DNA of 64,000 bases, from positions 682,001-746,000 of the forward strand of contig CALSQR010000001.1 of NCBI GenBank assembly GCA_943788505.1, in the 5' to 3' direction. Position numbers and translations under genes: made by a program. Of the stretch, positions 1,619-9,575 are shown piece after piece. Below the pieces are notes generated by a model. The model saw nothing but the letters and a program-made list of their open reading frames with translations. It did not search any database and was not told the origin of the DNA. This DNA comes from an uncultured bacterium (GTDB lineage: Bacteria; Bacteroidota; Rhodothermia; Rhodothermales; UBA10348). Every line of letters starts with the position of its first letter. Position 1 is the first letter of the stretch.

Positions 1619-2452
1619 ATGGCTGCTGACCCTTCCTTATCGTTGAATCGCTCCCCTTCCCAAGGAGACTTCCCATGCTTTGCTGCGGGGCTTCCCACGG
1701 CCTTACCCGGAGAGGGTGAATATGAGCTTCGTTTTGCCTGCTCACTGCAAGAGTTGACAGCCATCCAACGCCTTCGATATCGCGTGTTTAACATTGAGAT
1801 GAATGAAGGGCTGGCCAACTCGCACACCCGTCAGTTGGATGCCGATGAGTTTGACAAACAGTGCCACCATGTGTATGTCAGGCATCGAGAATCGGGAGAC
1901 ATTGTTGGGACGTACCGAATGCAAACCCAAAATATGGCTCAGGCCGGGAAGGGCTTCTATTCATCCACTGAGTATGACCTCGCAGCAATGAGTACTGCAT
2001 TGCTCGAAAATATCATTGAAATTGGGCGAGCCTGCATTTCGCGAGAACACCGGGGCTTACATGTGCTTTATCTGCTATGGAAAGGCCTCGGCCAATATGC
2101 TGCCCATAATCAGATGCGTTATCTGTTTGGTTGCTGCTCCGTAACGACCCAGGATCAGGCAGAGGGATTGGCCTTACTCGCAAAGTTGAAGCTAGAAGGG
2201 CATATGCATCCTGATCTTCTGGTTCATGCCCTTCCATCTCATCGCTGTCAGGTTCAAGAACAGAAATCCATTTCGAACGAGTTATCCAATAACATTCGCC
2301 CACCTCGATTGATGAGGACCTACCTGAGTCTCGGTGCTACCATCTGCAGTGAACCCGCTATCGATCGGAAATTTGGAACGATCGACTTTCTCGCCCTATT
2401 TGACTTCGAGAATCTCAATCATTCCGATTTGGCATTCTTCAAATTTAGATGA
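1619..2452 (+). CDS. OlsB/GlsB-like N-acyltransferase (GNAT/hemolysin-type fold)
   Basis: LRYRVFNIEM…DADEFDKQCHHVYV…GDIVGTYRMQ…FYSSTEYDL…EIGRACISREHRG…YLFGCCSV pattern of the OlsB family. Confidence 0.75.
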   Translation: MAADPSLSLNRSPSQGDFPCFAAGLPTALPGEGEYELRFACSLQELTAIQRLRYRVFNIEMNEGLANSHTRQLDADEFDKQCHHVYVRHRESGDIVGTYRMQTQNMAQAGKGFYSSTEYDLAAMSTALLENIIEIGRACISREHRGLHVLYLLWKGLGQYAAHNQMRYLFGCCSVTTQDQAEGLALLAKLKLEGHMHPDLLVHALPSHRCQVQEQKSISNELSNNIRPPRLMRTYLSLGATICSEPAIDRKFGTIDFLALFDFENLNHSDLAFFKFR

Positions 2453-3204
2453 TTCGACACGCACGGGCCCTGACCCGCATCACTCTGATCATGCTCTCCC
2501 TGCTGGTATTGCTTCCTTTCTGGCTGCTGACACGCTTGATTACTGCTGGTTCGCCCAGGCTGCAGCGTACATCAAGAGATGCATGGACGCGAGGTTGGAG
2601 CCGTCTAGCCGCTCGATTGATTGGCTTGAGAATTACTATCTCCGGTACGCCGCCAGATCCACCTTTCTGCTTAGTGTCCAACCATCTATCCTATCTGGAT
2701 GCGATAGTAATTTCTGCGCACGCCCCTGGCCTGATGATTGCTAAATCGGAAGTAGCTTCTTGGCCTCTGATTGGCTGGTTGAGTACGCAAATAGGGACCA
2801 TTTTTATTGATCGAAAGACCTCAAAAGATGTGATGAGGGTCAACGATATCATTAAAAAAACGCTTCTTGATGGAAATGGTGTTACGTTTTTCCCTGAAGG
2901 AACGACATCGGATGGCCAGGCTGTCGGGCGCTTCCACTCCTCCTTACTTAACTATCCGGCAAGTGTCTCGTACCCGGTCCATTATGCAACACTGAGATAT
3001 GAATCGGACCATGGGAACGTGGTCAATGATGTATGCTGGTGGGGTGACATGACCTTTGGAGCCCACTTTTATCGTATGTCTCAGTTGCCTAGAATCAAGG
3101 CAAAAATCCATTTTTGCACGGATCCAGTAACCAACCCAGACCGCAAGGAACTGACCGGTATGCTGCGTAGTGGTGTTGCCCAACATTTTCTTCCAATCAA
3201 CTAG
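2449..3204 (+). CDS. 1-acyl-sn-glycerol-3-phosphate acyltransferase-like (PlsC/OlsA/GlsA-like)
   Basis: VSNHLSYLDAIVI (NHxxxxD-like) and FFPEGTTSDG motifs; overlaps upstream gene by 4 nt (ATGA). Confidence 0.85.
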   Translation: MIRHARALTRITLIMLSLLVLLPFWLLTRLITAGSPRLQRTSRDAWTRGWSRLAARLIGLRITISGTPPDPPFCLVSNHLSYLDAIVISAHAPGLMIAKSEVASWPLIGWLSTQIGTIFIDRKTSKDVMRVNDIIKKTLLDGNGVTFFPEGTTSDGQAVGRFHSSLLNYPASVSYPVHYATLRYESDHGNVVNDVCWWGDMTFGAHFYRMSQLPRIKAKIHFCTDPVTNPDRKELTGMLRSGVAQHFLPIN

Positions 3205-3215
3205 TAATCCAACAA

Positions 3216-3731
3216 ATGACTGACACGGAAACACTCGTTGATTCAAATCGCGACTTTCTTCGCCAAGCTCAACGCCTGATCCTTTCGATTACCGATGAGT
3301 CATATGTGCATTCGGATGGGACAATTCATCAAAGTGGTGTTGGCGCTCACTTGCGGCACGTAATTGAGCATTATCAGCGGTTTCTTATTGGGACGCGCGA
3401 TGGCGAGGTCAATTATGATGCACGGCAACGAGATATGCGAATTGCAACAGATCGCAATCTTGCCTGCAGCGTAATGGAGCAGGTGGTCGAGGGTCTTGTG
3501 GACCTTGGTAGTGAAGACGCCGAAGTGAGCGTTCGCATGGCTTCGTCCGGTGATTCCATGCGTACCTCAGACGCGACCCAATCGTCCATCAACAGGGAAT
3601 TGCAGTACTTGGTGGCACACACTGTTCATCACTACGCACTGATCGGGTTCATCCTACGTTTACAGGGTATCGTTCCTCCAGAGGATTTTGGTATTGCGCC
3701 CTCTACGTTACAGCACTTCCAGGCACGATAG
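3216..3731 (+). CDS. DinB-like four-helix protein
   Basis: VGAHLRHVIEHYQRFL … YLVAHTVHHYALIGFILRLQG spaced His motifs; 12 nt after the PlsC-like gene. Confidence 0.55.
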   Translation: MTDTETLVDSNRDFLRQAQRLILSITDESYVHSDGTIHQSGVGAHLRHVIEHYQRFLIGTRDGEVNYDARQRDMRIATDRNLACSVMEQVVEGLVDLGSEDAEVSVRMASSGDSMRTSDATQSSINRELQYLVAHTVHHYALIGFILRLQGIVPPEDFGIAPSTLQHFQAR

Positions 3732-3743
3732 CACGTCTTCCAC

Positions 3744-6452
3744 ATGACGGCTTTAGCCAACTCCATTTCCCCACGTGGACAGACCGGACGGTGGCTTTTC
3801 TGGTTCTGGCTGATACTGTTGCTCGCCTCCTCCATCGTGCGTTGGTTGCAGCCTGACGTTCGACCTCGCTCCTACCAACGTTCGGTTTCGCTCCCTGCAA
3901 TGAATGGTGCGGGCGTAGTGAAAGGGAAACCGGTAGTGATGTCGTGGACAGACTCGAGTATTGGTGCCGTTAAATCAGACGTAAACGCGGAGACAGATTT
4001 AGATGCAGCCTCATCGCATCTTCCCGCCGTCATATTGCTTCACGGAAGCCCTGCAGCGTCTAGTTCGCTGATGCGCCTCCACCAGGAAATGGCTGATAAC
4101 GGTGATTGGCGGGTCATTACACCGGACCTTCCAGGTTTTGAGGGTTCATCTAAAAATATCCCTGACTATTCCGTCGCTGCCCACTCCCGGTATTTAGATG
4201 CTTTCTTGGACTCTTTAGATGTATCACAGGTACATCTGGTTGGCTACAGTATGTCTGGCGGTGTGGTCATTGAAGCGATGGACCATTGGCCAGAGCGCAT
4301 ATCCAGCATTACGCTACTCTCGGGAATAGGCGTTCAGGAGATGGAATTACTCGGTGATTACCATCTGAACCACGGAATCCATGGTCTTCAGTTAGCCGTG
4401 CTGTGGGGCCTCAGGAATCTCGTACCCCATTTTGGATGGATGGACTCGGCCATGTTGGGCGTTCCGTATGCTCGGAATTTTTACGATACAGATCAGCGGC
4501 CATTGAGGGGCATTCTTGGTCGATGGTCAAAACCAATGCTGATCCTGCATGCCGAAAATGACCCGCTGGTCCCTTTCTCGGCGGCGAAAGAGCACCATCG
4601 CATCGTTCCACAAAGTGAATGGGTAATCTATCCTGATGGCGGCCATGGAGTTGCGATGATGGCGGCGGCACGGGTGAGCGCAGATATCTCCACTTTCCTT
4701 CGCCGGGTAGATAGCGGAAACGGCGTCACCCGTGCCGCCGCCGAACCGGACAGATTGGCCGATGCCGCTCGTCCGTTTGATGCCTCACAACTACCCCCAG
4801 CCGTAGGCTTTTCTCTATTCATACTCATGTTTCTGCTCGCTATATCGACCCTCGTGAACGAGGACTTGGCAAGCATTGCAGCAGGGCTAATGGCTGCGCG
4901 CGGCACGATCGGAATTGAACACGCGATGATGGCGGCATTCGCGGGTATTCTGATCGGAGACATCGCATTGTATGCTGCGGGCAGATTCCTTGGACGTCGC
5001 ATACTTCATTTGCCACCATTTTCGTGGTTTATCGACGCTGCACAGCTTGATCGAGGCCAAAACTGGTTCAAGTCAAAAGGTGGTCGTGTGGTCATCGCCA
5101 GCCGGTTTATACCAGGGACTCGCTTTCCCACGTATGTAGCTGCTGGTGTTCTAAAAGCGCCTTTTTGGACGTTTTTAGGATATTTCCTGATTGCTACTGT
5201 CTTCTGGACCCCATTTATCGTTGGTCTTTCTGCATTCGCAGGGGAGCAAATCCTGGAGGTATGGACGGTATACGAAGACGTTGCTCTGTGGGTATTAGGT
5301 GGTCTGATTCTACTTCTCTATGGAATTATTCAACTGGGAATCCCACTCTTTCGACATAACGGGCGTCGCCTATTCGTATCTCGCTGGCGCCGACTCACAC
5401 GATGGGAATTCTGGCCACCTTGGGCCTTTTACCCCCCATTACTTCTTCACATAGCCAGGCTCGCCATAAAGCATCGCTCCTTGATGGTGTTTACGGCGGC
5501 TAATCCAGGAATTGATACTGGAGGATTCCTTGGTGAGTCCAAAGCTGCTGCGCTCGATTTACTGGAAGAAACACCAGAGGTTGTAGCTCGATGGAGTCTC
5601 ATTGCCCACGACCCCAAGGAAACAGAGGCCGATCTTTATGACCGCGTTTGCCGAGCCATGAAAGCGCATGGACTGGCCTTTCCTGTCGTCTTGAAGCCAG
5701 ACGTCGGTGACCGTGGTCATCGAGTTATGATCGTTCGCTCCTCCGATGAATTACGCAGTGCAGCAGTCTCGTTTCCTTCCGACTTCCTGATCCAAGAGTT
5801 CGTGGCCGGTGAAGAGTTTGGCCTTTTCTACATCCGACGCCCCTCCCAGTCGGAAGGCACCATCTTCTCTATCACCGAAAAACGACTTGTTTCGGTTACC
5901 GGAAATGGTGTAGATACGCTCGAGCGCCTGATTTTAGACGATGATCGTGCTGTATGCATGGCTTCGCTTTTCTTGAAGCGACATACAGGGTCCCTCGACC
6001 TGACATTGGACGATGGCATTGAATTCGAATTGGTATCTGTAGGCACCCATTCCCGGGGTGCGCTCTTTCTCGACGGGAGCTCATTGATGACCCCTGAGCT
6101 TGTCGAGGCGGTCGATGCCTTCGCTTCCAGGATGCCCGGCTTCTTTTTCGGTCGATTTGATGTTCGCGTCCCTTCAATCGAGGACTTGCGTCGTGGCATA
6201 CACATCAAAGTGCTGGAAGCAAACGGGGTTTCGTCCGAGGCGACGCACATCTATGATCCTGCCATTTCACTTGCGCAAGCCTACCGAGTCTTGAGATCGC
6301 AATGGGATCTTGCATTCAGCATCGGAGCAGAAAACGCACTACGTGGAGCCCAAGTAAGTTTACTTTCCGTCATCTTGAAGCGCATTGTCAGCCTGAAAAT
6401 GAAACCCATTGACCGACCCGACAAGGCAGCCCACACGACTATCATTAACTAG
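3744..6452 (+). CDS. Three-part fusion: N-terminal TM + alpha/beta-hydrolase, DedA/VTT membrane domain, ATP-grasp-like C-terminal domain
   Basis: LLHGSPAAS … VGYSMSGGVV (hydrolase nucleophile elbow) … GDIALYAAGRFLGRR … ASRFIPGTRFPTYVAAG (DedA) … FPVVLKPDVGDRGHRVMIV … LIQEFVAGEEFGLFY … GRFDVRV … IKVLEANGVSSEATHIYDP (ATP-grasp-like), one continuous ORF. Confidence 0.8.
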   Translation: MTALANSISPRGQTGRWLFWFWLILLLASSIVRWLQPDVRPRSYQRSVSLPAMNGAGVVKGKPVVMSWTDSSIGAVKSDVNAETDLDAASSHLPAVILLHGSPAASSSLMRLHQEMADNGDWRVITPDLPGFEGSSKNIPDYSVAAHSRYLDAFLDSLDVSQVHLVGYSMSGGVVIEAMDHWPERISSITLLSGIGVQEMELLGDYHLNHGIHGLQLAVLWGLRNLVPHFGWMDSAMLGVPYARNFYDTDQRPLRGILGRWSKPMLILHAENDPLVPFSAAKEHHRIVPQSEWVIYPDGGHGVAMMAAARVSADISTFLRRVDSGNGVTRAAAEPDRLADAARPFDASQLPPAVGFSLFILMFLLAISTLVNEDLASIAAGLMAARGTIGIEHAMMAAFAGILIGDIALYAAGRFLGRRILHLPPFSWFIDAAQLDRGQNWFKSKGGRVVIASRFIPGTRFPTYVAAGVLKAPFWTFLGYFLIATVFWTPFIVGLSAFAGEQILEVWTVYEDVALWVLGGLILLLYGIIQLGIPLFRHNGRRLFVSRWRRLTRWEFWPPWAFYPPLLLHIARLAIKHRSLMVFTAANPGIDTGGFLGESKAAALDLLEETPEVVARWSLIAHDPKETEADLYDRVCRAMKAHGLAFPVVLKPDVGDRGHRVMIVRSSDELRSAAVSFPSDFLIQEFVAGEEFGLFYIRRPSQSEGTIFSITEKRLVSVTGNGVDTLERLILDDDRAVCMASLFLKRHTGSLDLTLDDGIEFELVSVGTHSRGALFLDGSSLMTPELVEAVDAFASRMPGFFFGRFDVRVPSIEDLRRGIHIKVLEANGVSSEATHIYDPAISLAQAYRVLRSQWDLAFSIGAENALRGAQVSLLSVILKRIVSLKMKPIDRPDKAAHTTIIN

Positions 6453-6515: not shown

Positions 6516-7334
6516 ATGTTGTGTCCGTCCGTACGCCGTATCTTCGACGGGTTGTTCACATTTCATGAGCCCCGATCAATGATTACAGCCCGAATAGGCC
6601 GCTCGCTTCACAGCATAGGAGAGTACTCCTTGTTCATGGTGCGGGCGTTTTCTTCGACGCGGGAATCCGTCCGTCACGGATCCATCATTTTCATGGAAAT
6701 GGTGAGGCTGGGAGTCAATTCCATCCCTGTCGTTCTGATGGCTTCCATTTTTGCTGGCGTGGTCCTAACCCTTCAGACGGCCTATCAGCTCGAAAACACC
6801 ATCCTAACGGCTGAAGCCATTGGAACCATTGTCGTTCCGACGCTAATTCTCGAGATGGCCGCCCTGACGCCAGGTCTTGTCCTCGCTTCGAGGGTAGGAG
6901 CCAGCATCGCAGCTGAACTTGGCACCATGAAGGTCACGGAACAGGTTGATGCCTTAGAGGCCATGGGGCTCAACTCGGTTGCTTACTTGGTGCTCCCTCG
7001 CGTGATTGCTGGAATTCTGATGTTTCCTTGCCTCTATGTTGCCTCTGCCCTGATGTCAATCTTGGCCGGTGCATTGGCAGGAGAGTACATGGGATTTCTC
7101 TCTGTCCAATCCTATATCATAGGCGCCAAAGCCTGGTTCGTGCCGTTTGATGCTTATTTCGGTGTGACCAAATCTATGGTCTTCGGATTTCTCATAACAT
7201 CCATCGCTTGCTGGAAAGGATTTCACGCTAGCGGTGGTGCTGACGGCGTCGGACGTGCTACAACAGAAGCCGTAGTTATTAGCTGTGTGAACATATTGAT
7301 TGCTGACTATATCATGGCCGAAGTCATACTCTGA
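6516..7334 (+). CDS. MlaE-family ABC transporter permease (start may be 6579)
   Basis: GVVLTLQTAYQLE … ALTPGLVLASRVGASIAAELGTMKVTEQVDALEAMGLN … LPRVIAGILMFPCL, characteristic MlaE. Confidence 0.92.
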   Translation: MLCPSVRRIFDGLFTFHEPRSMITARIGRSLHSIGEYSLFMVRAFSSTRESVRHGSIIFMEMVRLGVNSIPVVLMASIFAGVVLTLQTAYQLENTILTAEAIGTIVVPTLILEMAALTPGLVLASRVGASIAAELGTMKVTEQVDALEAMGLNSVAYLVLPRVIAGILMFPCLYVASALMSILAGALAGEYMGFLSVQSYIIGAKAWFVPFDAYFGVTKSMVFGFLITSIACWKGFHASGGADGVGRATTEAVVISCVNILIADYIMAEVIL

Positions 7335-7355
7335 TCTAACCATCCGATTCTTTCC

Positions 7356-9575
7356 ATGTCGAAGAGTATACCTCACGACGTGATGTCTCCTGACCTAGGA
7401 GACCAAGGGTCCGCCACCGGCCTGTCCACTTTCGGTGGTGTCTTTACTCCCTCGATCCTTACGATCCTGGGCGTAATCATGTATCTGCGATTTGGATGGG
7501 TCGTAGGGAATGTTGGCGTCACAGGCACTTTTTTGATTGTGACCTTGTCCACCGGTATTACGTTTCTTACCGGGCTTTCGATCGCGTCGATCGCTACCGA
7601 TCAGCGAATTCGTACCGGTGGGGCCTACTACATGATTTCTAGGTCGCTCGGCATTGAAGCAGGTGGCGCGGTGGGGATTCCGCTCTATTTGGCCCAAGCA
7701 TTGTCCGTTGCGCTCTACACCATTGGGTTCGCGGAAAGTGTGGTTAACGTATTCCCTGTTTTGGATGCGAAGATGGTTGCGCTCGTGACGACCGCAGCAG
7801 TTACTGTTCTCGCCCTGAAATCAGCACGAGCGGCGATTAAGGCTCAGTACATCATCATGGGAGCTATCGCGATTTCGCTCCTGTCTCTTTTCTTCGGTTC
7901 TCCCCTTGAATCAACTTCCGTACCCACAGCTGCCGAAGCAGCGCAGGGTGTTGAAAAGGCAGGTTTTTGGGTAGTTTTTGCCGTCTTCTTCCCGGCTGTT
8001 ACAGGGATTATGGCCGGAGTAAATATGTCGGGCGATCTCAAGAACCCCGGCCGATCCATTCCAATTGGAACGCTGGCAGCCATTGGTGTAGGGTACCTAA
8101 TCTATATGTCGATCCCCTTGCTATTGGCTAGTAGGGCATCGGATGCGCAGCTTATCTCTGACCCCATGATCATGCGGAAAATCGCATTCTGGGGTGATGC
8201 GATCATTATGGGTGTCTGGGGAGCGACCCTTTCAAGCGCAGTAGGATCCATTCTTGGAGCGCCTCGAGTACTGCAAGCACTAGCACGAGATGGCGTCCTT
8301 CCGCCCTTCCTTCGCTTTCTGGGCCAAGGGTCTGGAGAGGAAGATGAACCCCGGGTAGGAACGGCTTTTACGTTCGCACTCGCCGCTATCACGGTTTTGC
8401 TTGCTGATCTGAACCTCGTTGCACCCATCCTGACCATGTTCTTCCTCACCACCTACGGGGTGCTCAACATCACTGCAGGACTAGAACAGTTTCTGGGAAA
8501 TCCATCCTTTAGGCCCAAGTTCAGGGTCCATTGGCTCTTCTCCTTGGCAGGTGCGGTGGGTTGTACGATAGTAATGTTCTTGATCAACTCGCTTGCCACA
8601 GGTGCGGCCATAGCCATCGTACTCACCATCTATTTCTGGCTGGAGCGGCAAGAATTGCGCTCAGCTTGGGGCGATGTTCGAAATGGTATTTGGTTCAATC
8701 TCACTCGAACCGGCCTATTGCGGCTTCGCAACACGATAGATGCCAAAAACTGGCGTCCTCATCTGTTGGTGCTGTCTGGCGCGCCCACTCGCCGGTGGTA
8801 CTTGATAGAATTTGCTTCCTCCCTTTCTCACAACCGCGGCCTCGTTACGGTCTCATCCATTCTGACAGGGGATAACGTATCTGCACGGCGTCTTGAAAGC
8901 ATGTCCTCAAGTATCTACGAATACCTGGATAAGCAGGGAATCCAAGCCCTCGTTCGCATCATCAGCGCCGATGATCCATTCAAAGGTGCTCAACAGCTGG
9001 TTACGACGTATGGCTTGGGCACGTTGGTCCCGAACACCGTCGTTTTGGGAGCGACTGAACAGCCTGAACATCATGCGCCATACTGTGAAATGATTCGTCA
9101 ATTCCGTGGTGCCCAACGCAATACTCTGATTGTGCGCCAAAACGAACAACGAGGCTTCGGATCCCGTCGTCACATCGATGTTTGGTGGGGCGGACGAAAG
9201 GGAAACGGTGCCCTTATGGTGATCTTGTCATGGCTGCTGAGTACAAGCTTAGAGTGGCGTGGTTGTACCGTGACTATCAAAATGGTCGTACCCTCTGAAT
9301 CCGCCGCTCAAGGTGCAAGAGCAAATCTGGAGACGATTCTGCAAGCCTCCCGTACTGGCTCCCAAGCAGATATCATTGTCTCCAATGGACGTCCTTTTTG
9401 GGAATTGCTTCGAGAGTCATCTAATTCAGCTGATCTGGTCTTCTTGGGAATGGCCGAACCAGATGACAATTTCCTAAGCTACTATTCGAAACTACAGGAA
9501 CAGACGCGCGATCTGCCAACTACCGTTTTCGTCTTGGCGGCGGAAGATCTGGAATTCGGCGAAGTTATCATGTAG
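7356..9575 (+). CDS. APC-superfamily carrier resembling cation-chloride cotransporters (SLC12-like)
   Basis: TFGGVFTPSILTILGVIMYLRFGWVVGNVG … GFWVVFAVFFPAVTGIMAGVNMSGDLKNPGRSIP …; soluble C-terminal domain RPHLLVLSGAPTRRWYLIEFASSLSHNRGLV. Confidence 0.88.
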   Translation: MSKSIPHDVMSPDLGDQGSATGLSTFGGVFTPSILTILGVIMYLRFGWVVGNVGVTGTFLIVTLSTGITFLTGLSIASIATDQRIRTGGAYYMISRSLGIEAGGAVGIPLYLAQALSVALYTIGFAESVVNVFPVLDAKMVALVTTAAVTVLALKSARAAIKAQYIIMGAIAISLLSLFFGSPLESTSVPTAAEAAQGVEKAGFWVVFAVFFPAVTGIMAGVNMSGDLKNPGRSIPIGTLAAIGVGYLIYMSIPLLLASRASDAQLISDPMIMRKIAFWGDAIIMGVWGATLSSAVGSILGAPRVLQALARDGVLPPFLRFLGQGSGEEDEPRVGTAFTFALAAITVLLADLNLVAPILTMFFLTTYGVLNITAGLEQFLGNPSFRPKFRVHWLFSLAGAVGCTIVMFLINSLATGAAIAIVLTIYFWLERQELRSAWGDVRNGIWFNLTRTGLLRLRNTIDAKNWRPHLLVLSGAPTRRWYLIEFASSLSHNRGLVTVSSILTGDNVSARRLESMSSSIYEYLDKQGIQALVRIISADDPFKGAQQLVTTYGLGTLVPNTVVLGATEQPEHHAPYCEMIRQFRGAQRNTLIVRQNEQRGFGSRRHIDVWWGGRKGNGALMVILSWLLSTSLEWRGCTVTIKMVVPSESAAQGARANLETILQASRTGSQADIIVSNGRPFWELLRESSNSADLVFLGMAEPDDNFLSYYSKLQEQTRDLPTTVFVLAAEDLEFGEVIM

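Follow-up and report, generated by a model that had tools for sequence, protein, structure and literature searches.

MprF is an aminoacyl-PG synthase-flippase whose synthase is tRNA-dependent. In the LpiA-AcvB system, a lipid aminoacyl synthase and an interacting periplasmic hydrolase are encoded in one operon; AcvB binds LpiA, and the hydrolase removes the modification made by the synthase (PMC13197417). Ornithine lipids are synthesized by OlsB/OlsA, OlsF, or OlsH/OlsI, and the OlsI of Singulisphaera is an alpha/beta-hydrolase acting as an O-acyltransferase (PMC12493201). Other bacteria contain acyloxyacyl lipids whose heads are of the taurine-ornithine and Gly-Ser types (PMC12493201); no ligase named for these heads was found in the searchable literature. 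Among membrane transporters, VTT/DedA proteins move lipids, undecaprenyl phosphate being the one flipped by relatives of DedA (PMC12893004, PMC11474028), and the characterized DedA C55-P flippases move their lipid inward, recycling C55-P (PMC11474028). For phosphorus-free amino lipids, both the extension of the head and the passage across the inner membrane are still to be explained.

The fusion gene analyzed here is one testable candidate for both of these steps. The theme of MprF and LpiA-AcvB, one polypeptide that both synthesizes and flips a lipid head group with a periplasmic hydrolase as partner, would recur in its product. The domains, however, are unrelated: an ATP-grasp domain stands in for the tRNA-dependent synthase and a VTT domain for the flippase of MprF, the hydrolase is part of the same polypeptide, and the linked genes are those for ornithine lipids, not PG. 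No MprF synthase or flippase Pfam domain was found in the whole protein at E<0.1. With the ornithine-lipid synthesis systems the fusion has its operon in common, and with OlsI the alpha/beta-hydrolase fold, but unlike them it is an extra protein downstream of two acyltransferases. No publication describing the fusion was found in the literature searched, and none combining DedA, ATP-grasp, and ornithine lipid, most subscription journals lying outside the search. The fusion is tentatively regarded, at slightly less than an even chance, as a membrane enzyme of the OlsB/OlsA pathway, in which the ligase extends the head group, the VTT domain exports the lipid, and the hydrolase, where active, trims it. 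It would also be an ATP-grasp counterpart of MprF, made from unrelated parts.

The locus and its linkage to ornithine-lipid genes

The window, a stretch of 64,000 nucleotides, belongs to a genome of 2.75 Mb in two contigs. It contains an operon with the gene order OlsB-OlsA-DinB-fusion on one strand, the fusion being the last gene. The following features were found:

1619..2452, + strand: OlsB-type N-acyltransferase (PF13444; Pfam 8.7e-32), first gene of the module
2449..3204, + strand: OlsA-type O-acyltransferase (PF01553; Pfam 6e-19)
3216..3731, + strand: DinB-family protein (Pfam DinB 1.6e-7, over cut-off), adjoining the fusion in most loci
3744..6452, + strand: hydrolase-VTT-ATP-grasp fusion, 902 aa, ATG start, single uninterrupted ORF
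3777..3848, + strand: N-terminal TM anchor, residues 12-35 (AF2 helix 12-35; hydropathy peak 17-35)
4011..4718, + strand: alpha/beta-hydrolase domain, residues ~90-325 (Pfam, profile, and fold matches; triad S169, D273, H301)
4800..5351, + strand: VTT/DedA membrane domain, residues ~353-536 (PF09335, 1.1e-15)
5403..6413, + strand: ATP-grasp ligase domain by predicted fold, residues ~554-890 (profile against PDB, AF2, Foldseek), beginning at the WEFWP motif

The start of OlsA overlaps the stop of OlsB by 4 bases, and the remaining gaps are 11 and 12 bases. Both acyltransferases match ornithine-lipid models best. The NCBIfam matches are nevertheless below the equivalog cut-offs, both for OlsB (9e-43; 147 bits against 350) and for OlsA (2.4e-36), so the amino acid could be other than ornithine. 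OlsB is a single-copy gene, the only one with PF13444 in the genome; thus, its placement no more than 5 kb from the fusion and on the same strand would be expected by chance in ~0.4% of cases per genome.

The ligase domain was found in three forms: ligase alone (~350 aa, Bacteroidia), VTT-ligase, and hydrolase-VTT-ligase. The count was limited to loci whose upstream sequence spans 3 kb or more, many of them related and so not independent draws. A same-strand OlsB or OlsF gene at a distance of no more than 5 kb was found in 29 of the 32 three-domain loci (12/12, 5/5, and 12/15 in three groups), in 4 of 13 VTT-ligase loci, and in none of the 22 loci with the ligase alone. The three three-domain loci without a nearby Ols gene count against the preferred reading.

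Full-length homologues were found in 16 of the 41 relatives searched, the genome of the window included. OlsB and the full fusion were both present in 15 of the 41 relatives and both absent in 24, with one discordant genome of each kind. Both discordant cases are contig ends, one stopping within DinB (G017) and the other within the hydrolase (G013). For the 29 good-quality genomes the table is 12/0/1/16 (Fisher 2.5e-7, with no correction for kinship). Differences were found even inside single genera: OlsB and the fusion are present in G000 and G005 and both absent in G003, G004, and G006 of one genus, and in another they are present in G016, G020, and G023 and absent in G008. In G003, G004, G006, and G018 the site is empty: the whole OlsB-OlsA-DinB-fusion block is gone, the flanking cupin, MlaE, and KCC-like genes are kept, and the cupin gene is followed directly by MlaE, the aligned ends being separated by 157-336 bases. 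In G001, only a decayed remnant of the ligase domain, frame-shifted and split over two frames, was found at the site of the block (L123:6476-7323). Since the block is lost whole while its flanks stay, OlsB-OlsA-DinB-fusion is a unit that excludes the downstream genes. Gene linkage and joint presence and absence with OlsB both mark the fusion as a putative member of the ornithine-lipid pathway. This compact module of four genes comes and goes as a whole, and its linkage recurs in several phyla.

Other candidate members were rejected. The MlaE, KCC-like, and LysA genes are kept when the block is lost, and outside the family other genes are found at these positions. DinB is not a strict partner, being absent from 5 of the 12 loci of family f18 (Rhodothermia; L082-L093), nor is TANGO2, whose only gene in the genome of the window is located far away. 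A defense system was ruled out, as PADLOC gave no match.

Several further features were observed around the block. In G002, OlsA is the only gene of the block that remains between cupin and MlaE (L131:4123-4863); OlsB, DinB, and the fusion have no counterpart there. Positions 6516-9575 of the window encode an MlaE-type permease, whose usual partners are not its immediate neighbors, and then a large transporter, cation-chloride cotransporter-like by eye; this pair has conserved synteny in the family and stays in place where the lipid block has been lost. The genes directly upstream of OlsB often encode a ferric-reductase-like/Rieske membrane protein and a protein of 250 aa (L021:118-1155 and 1174-1983; also L094, L095, L097, L104, L112-L114, L117, L118, and L127). 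The 250-aa protein has no Pfam match and contains a conserved VDSKC...HRACATRCISGGIPP stretch.

Domains of the fusion and their predicted sidedness

The initial annotation had described one unbroken 902-aa ORF with a TM anchor, a hydrolase, a DedA/VTT core, and, more doubtfully, an ATP-grasp region. Every motif it quoted was found in 3744-6452, and all four domain calls, the doubtful one included, proved correct; the boundaries were refined to those listed above. The observation lies far outside what chance would produce, and the suspicion of an assembly artefact was dispelled by full-length homologues with 44-58% identity in other assemblies and phyla, dozens of these assemblies being unrelated. 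The AF2 model of the full chain has a pLDDT of 83.8 and a pTM of 0.57; each domain can be trusted by itself, but not the way in which the domains are arranged relative to one another.

ATP-grasp enzymes join a carboxylate to an amine. In the whole-protein Pfam search, the RimK ATP-grasp family (PF08443) matched residues 632-689 at 0.0012 and 19 bits, below the 21-bit cut-off. A profile of 15 homologues searched against PDB matched CphA2 (3e-8), CphA1 (4e-7), GshAB (5e-6), and Ddl (4e-5). The C-terminal part modeled alone by AF2 reached a pLDDT of 89.5 and a pTM of 0.87, and the top Foldseek matches of this model were CphA1 (1.3e-10), GshAB (1.6e-10), and Ddl (3e-9). The possibility that this region is not ATP-grasp was thus ruled out, and its membership in the superfamily is confirmed at the level of the predicted fold. 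In the 34 of 35 aligned three-domain proteins that reach the ATP-grasp region, twelve positions are invariant (K651, G655, R657, Q684, E691, K713, H769, R804, D806, E825, N827, and E832); they include all the ATP/Mg-binding residues K651, E691, D806, E825, and N827, the last two forming the Glu-x-Asn motif. Fold and catalytic residues are common to the fusion and to CphA1/CphA2, GshAB, Ddl, and RimK. Unlike these peptide ligases, to which its identity is ~18% (Foldseek), the ligase domain opens with the conserved hydrophobic WEFWP region. No equivalog model was matched above its cut-off: NCBIfam scores for RimK, cyanophycin synthetase, and Ddl were 11-25 bits against cut-offs of at least 140.

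The VTT family (PF09335) matched residues 376-496 at 1.1e-15 and 58.6 bits, above the 33.9-bit cut-off. In this domain E373, D406, R454, P457, G458, and R460 are invariant in all 35 aligned three-domain proteins. The functional charged residues compared were E39, D51, R130, and R136 of YqjA (PMC6849406), of which the R130/R136 pair is required in YqjA/YghB (PMC6849406). R454 and R460 have the spacing of this pair, and in an alignment with the other DedA protein of the genome E373-D374 fall at its D51 position; a counterpart of E39 is not clear. The fusion shares the G-D and R-F-x-P-G-x-R signatures and an above-cut-off PF09335 match with DedA/VTT flippases (UptA, YqjA/YghB, PA4029), but differs from them by the lack of an apparent canonical E39-type acid and by its fusion to two enzymes. 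When the VTT domain alone was compared with solved structures by sequence, no match was found. It did match the UptA model (NF052604) at 2.7e-14, as would be expected if it were an ordinary C55-P or phospholipid flippase, joined for convenience to two domains that act in separate processes. Such an arrangement is highly improbable: the UptA score is only 53.7 bits against a 250-bit equivalog cut-off, the fusion and OlsB are linked and disappear together, and the genome has a separate DedA gene.

The predicted sidedness is based on flanking charges. Of the 35 aligned three-domain proteins, 34 have a net positive charge on the N side of the anchor, and all 35 have a charge of +3 to +7 in the stretch that follows the last VTT helix. 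By the positive-inside rule, the membrane would separate the two enzymes, with a periplasmic hydrolase and a cytosolic ligase.

In both sequence and fold, the hydrolase part resembles ordinary alpha/beta-hydrolases. In the Pfam search, Abhydrolase_1 (PF00561) matched residues 94-194 at 6.6e-26 and 91.9 bits, above the cut-off, and Abhydrolase_4 matched residues 252-320. The TM-anchored lipid hydrolases PlaF (6i8w) and ABHD6 (7ots), which combine an anchor with the same fold, are among the Foldseek matches; both, however, stop after the hydrolase where the fusion continues, and the scores of general alpha/beta-hydrolases are better, which gives no sign of a specific kinship. The Ser-Asp-His triad S169/D273/H301 is present in the protein of the window and whole in 22 of the 35 aligned three-domain proteins. 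In family f18 all 12 sampled proteins lack the nucleophile serine, and most lack the other triad residues too; the hydrolase domain is still there, and the flippase and ligase residues stay invariant. To judge from these residues, the N-terminal domain of f18 has become a pseudo-enzyme. One locus of different character (L016:337-3063, on the same contig as G013 C181) has the first half of the hydrolase swapped for sequence that by eye resembles a leucyl-aminopeptidase N-domain; it lies at a contig end and is probably a chimeric MAG contig.

The state of the hydrolase bears on two other explanations. With the hydrolase outside and the ligase inside, the protein could serve turnover or salvage: the periplasmic hydrolase would cleave ornithine lipid, the VTT domain would carry the product inward in the manner of DedA flippases that recycle C55-P (PMC11474028), and the cytosolic ligase would re-use it. 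PlaF and ABHD6 among the fold matches agree with this scheme; it is unlikely, given that the nucleophile is lost in 12/12 f18 proteins though the operon and the other domains persist, and that VTT-ligase forms exist without the hydrolase domain. Alternatively, the hydrolase could act as an O-acyltransferase following the precedent of OlsI (PMC12493201), and the fusion would take part in ornithine-lipid synthesis itself. At three loci (L030, L094, and L104) OlsB and the fusion are present with no OlsA between them and with the triad intact, so the hydrolase could stand in for OlsA there; the dead-triad family f18 always has OlsA. This role is improbable, as most loci with an intact triad also carry OlsA, three cases are too few, and OlsA could be located elsewhere in these genomes.

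Proposed function

Under the preferred reading, in which the fusion extends and exports a lipid of the OlsB/OlsA pathway, the linkage to OlsB and OlsA points to an acyloxyacyl amino lipid as the likely substrate. The cytosolic ATP-grasp domain would form an amide bond on the head group of this ornithine-type lipid, the N-acylated amino acid most likely being activated at its free carboxylate; the amine joined may be an amino acid or a taurine-like compound, which is a guess. The product would have a head of the taurine-ornithine or Gly-Ser type. The VTT domain would then carry this lipid across to the outer leaflet. Where the triad is intact, the TM-anchored periplasmic hydrolase may trim or turn over the exported product, the bond cleaved being likewise guessed. 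We infer both the direct action on the lipid and the order of these steps. The loss of the serine in f18, with flippase and ligase residues invariant, suggests a ligase-flippase core in which periplasmic hydrolysis is optional and the hydrolase dispensable. It is possible, though doubtful, that this single-chain synthase-flippase-hydrolase supplies both the missing ATP-grasp ligase for dipeptide- or taurine-type heads and a dedicated flippase of acyloxyacyl amino lipids. Against the preferred reading stand the whole-chain pTM, which is that of a loosely defined arrangement, and the inward direction of the known DedA flippases.

The initial annotation had suggested hydrolysis, flipping, and ligation of one lipid or lipid-linked substrate. 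Its candidate lipid substrate gained support from the OlsB-OlsA operon, the 29/32 linkage, and the joint presence and absence with OlsB, and a ligase-flippase core in a lipid pathway can be retained. The three-step scheme on one substrate is supported only in part: hydrolase and ligase are predicted on opposite sides, the serine is lost in 12/12 f18 proteins, and many relatives consist of VTT-ligase or of the ligase alone.

Distribution and the stand-alone ligase

The closest named relative, with 57-58% identity and identical gene order, is a Rhodothermales MAG (L015). The ligase domain was found in 45 of 196 genomes of Rhodothermia, where nearly all frames have 810-920 codons, and in 38 of 247 genomes of Acidobacteriota, where most frames are either long (~870-980 codons) or shorter (~540-640 codons). 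Members from Verrucomicrobiota and Planctomycetota were recovered by contig search. From a tree of 73 ligase domains, a single origin of the three-domain form could not be told apart from several origins.

In Bacteroidia, the stand-alone ligase has DinB, TANGO2, YHS, DoxX, DM13, and LysE as neighbors. OlsB was found near it in none of 20 loci, and a LysE-type gene was found beside it in 8 of 21. Either the ligase was recruited secondarily to lipid metabolism, or its direct substrate is something other than the lipid. These loci fit equally well a soluble amino-acid or dipeptide product: the ATP-grasp domain would make a cytosolic dipeptide or amino-acid conjugate, the VTT domain (LysE in Bacteroidia) would export it, and the Ols genes would merely be co-regulated, for example in a stress regulon. 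The nearest folds, those of amino-acid and peptide ligases, are in line with such a product. It is nonetheless quite unlikely, since the fusion is gained and lost with OlsB and OlsA and not with the downstream MlaE, KCC, and LysA genes, and we know of no VTT protein that carries free amino acids. Extension and export of an OlsB/OlsA lipid remains the preferred reading for the three-domain form.

The gene order DinB-TANGO2-ligase recurs in Bacteroidia, Acidobacteriota, and Verrucomicrobiota. Bacterial TANGO2 homologues were described as heme-trafficking proteins (PMC10470608) and human TANGO2 as an acyl-CoA binder (PMC11867700). At one Bacteroidia locus (L069:5384-7174), a TANGO2 (NRDE) domain is fused to the same ATP-grasp ligase.
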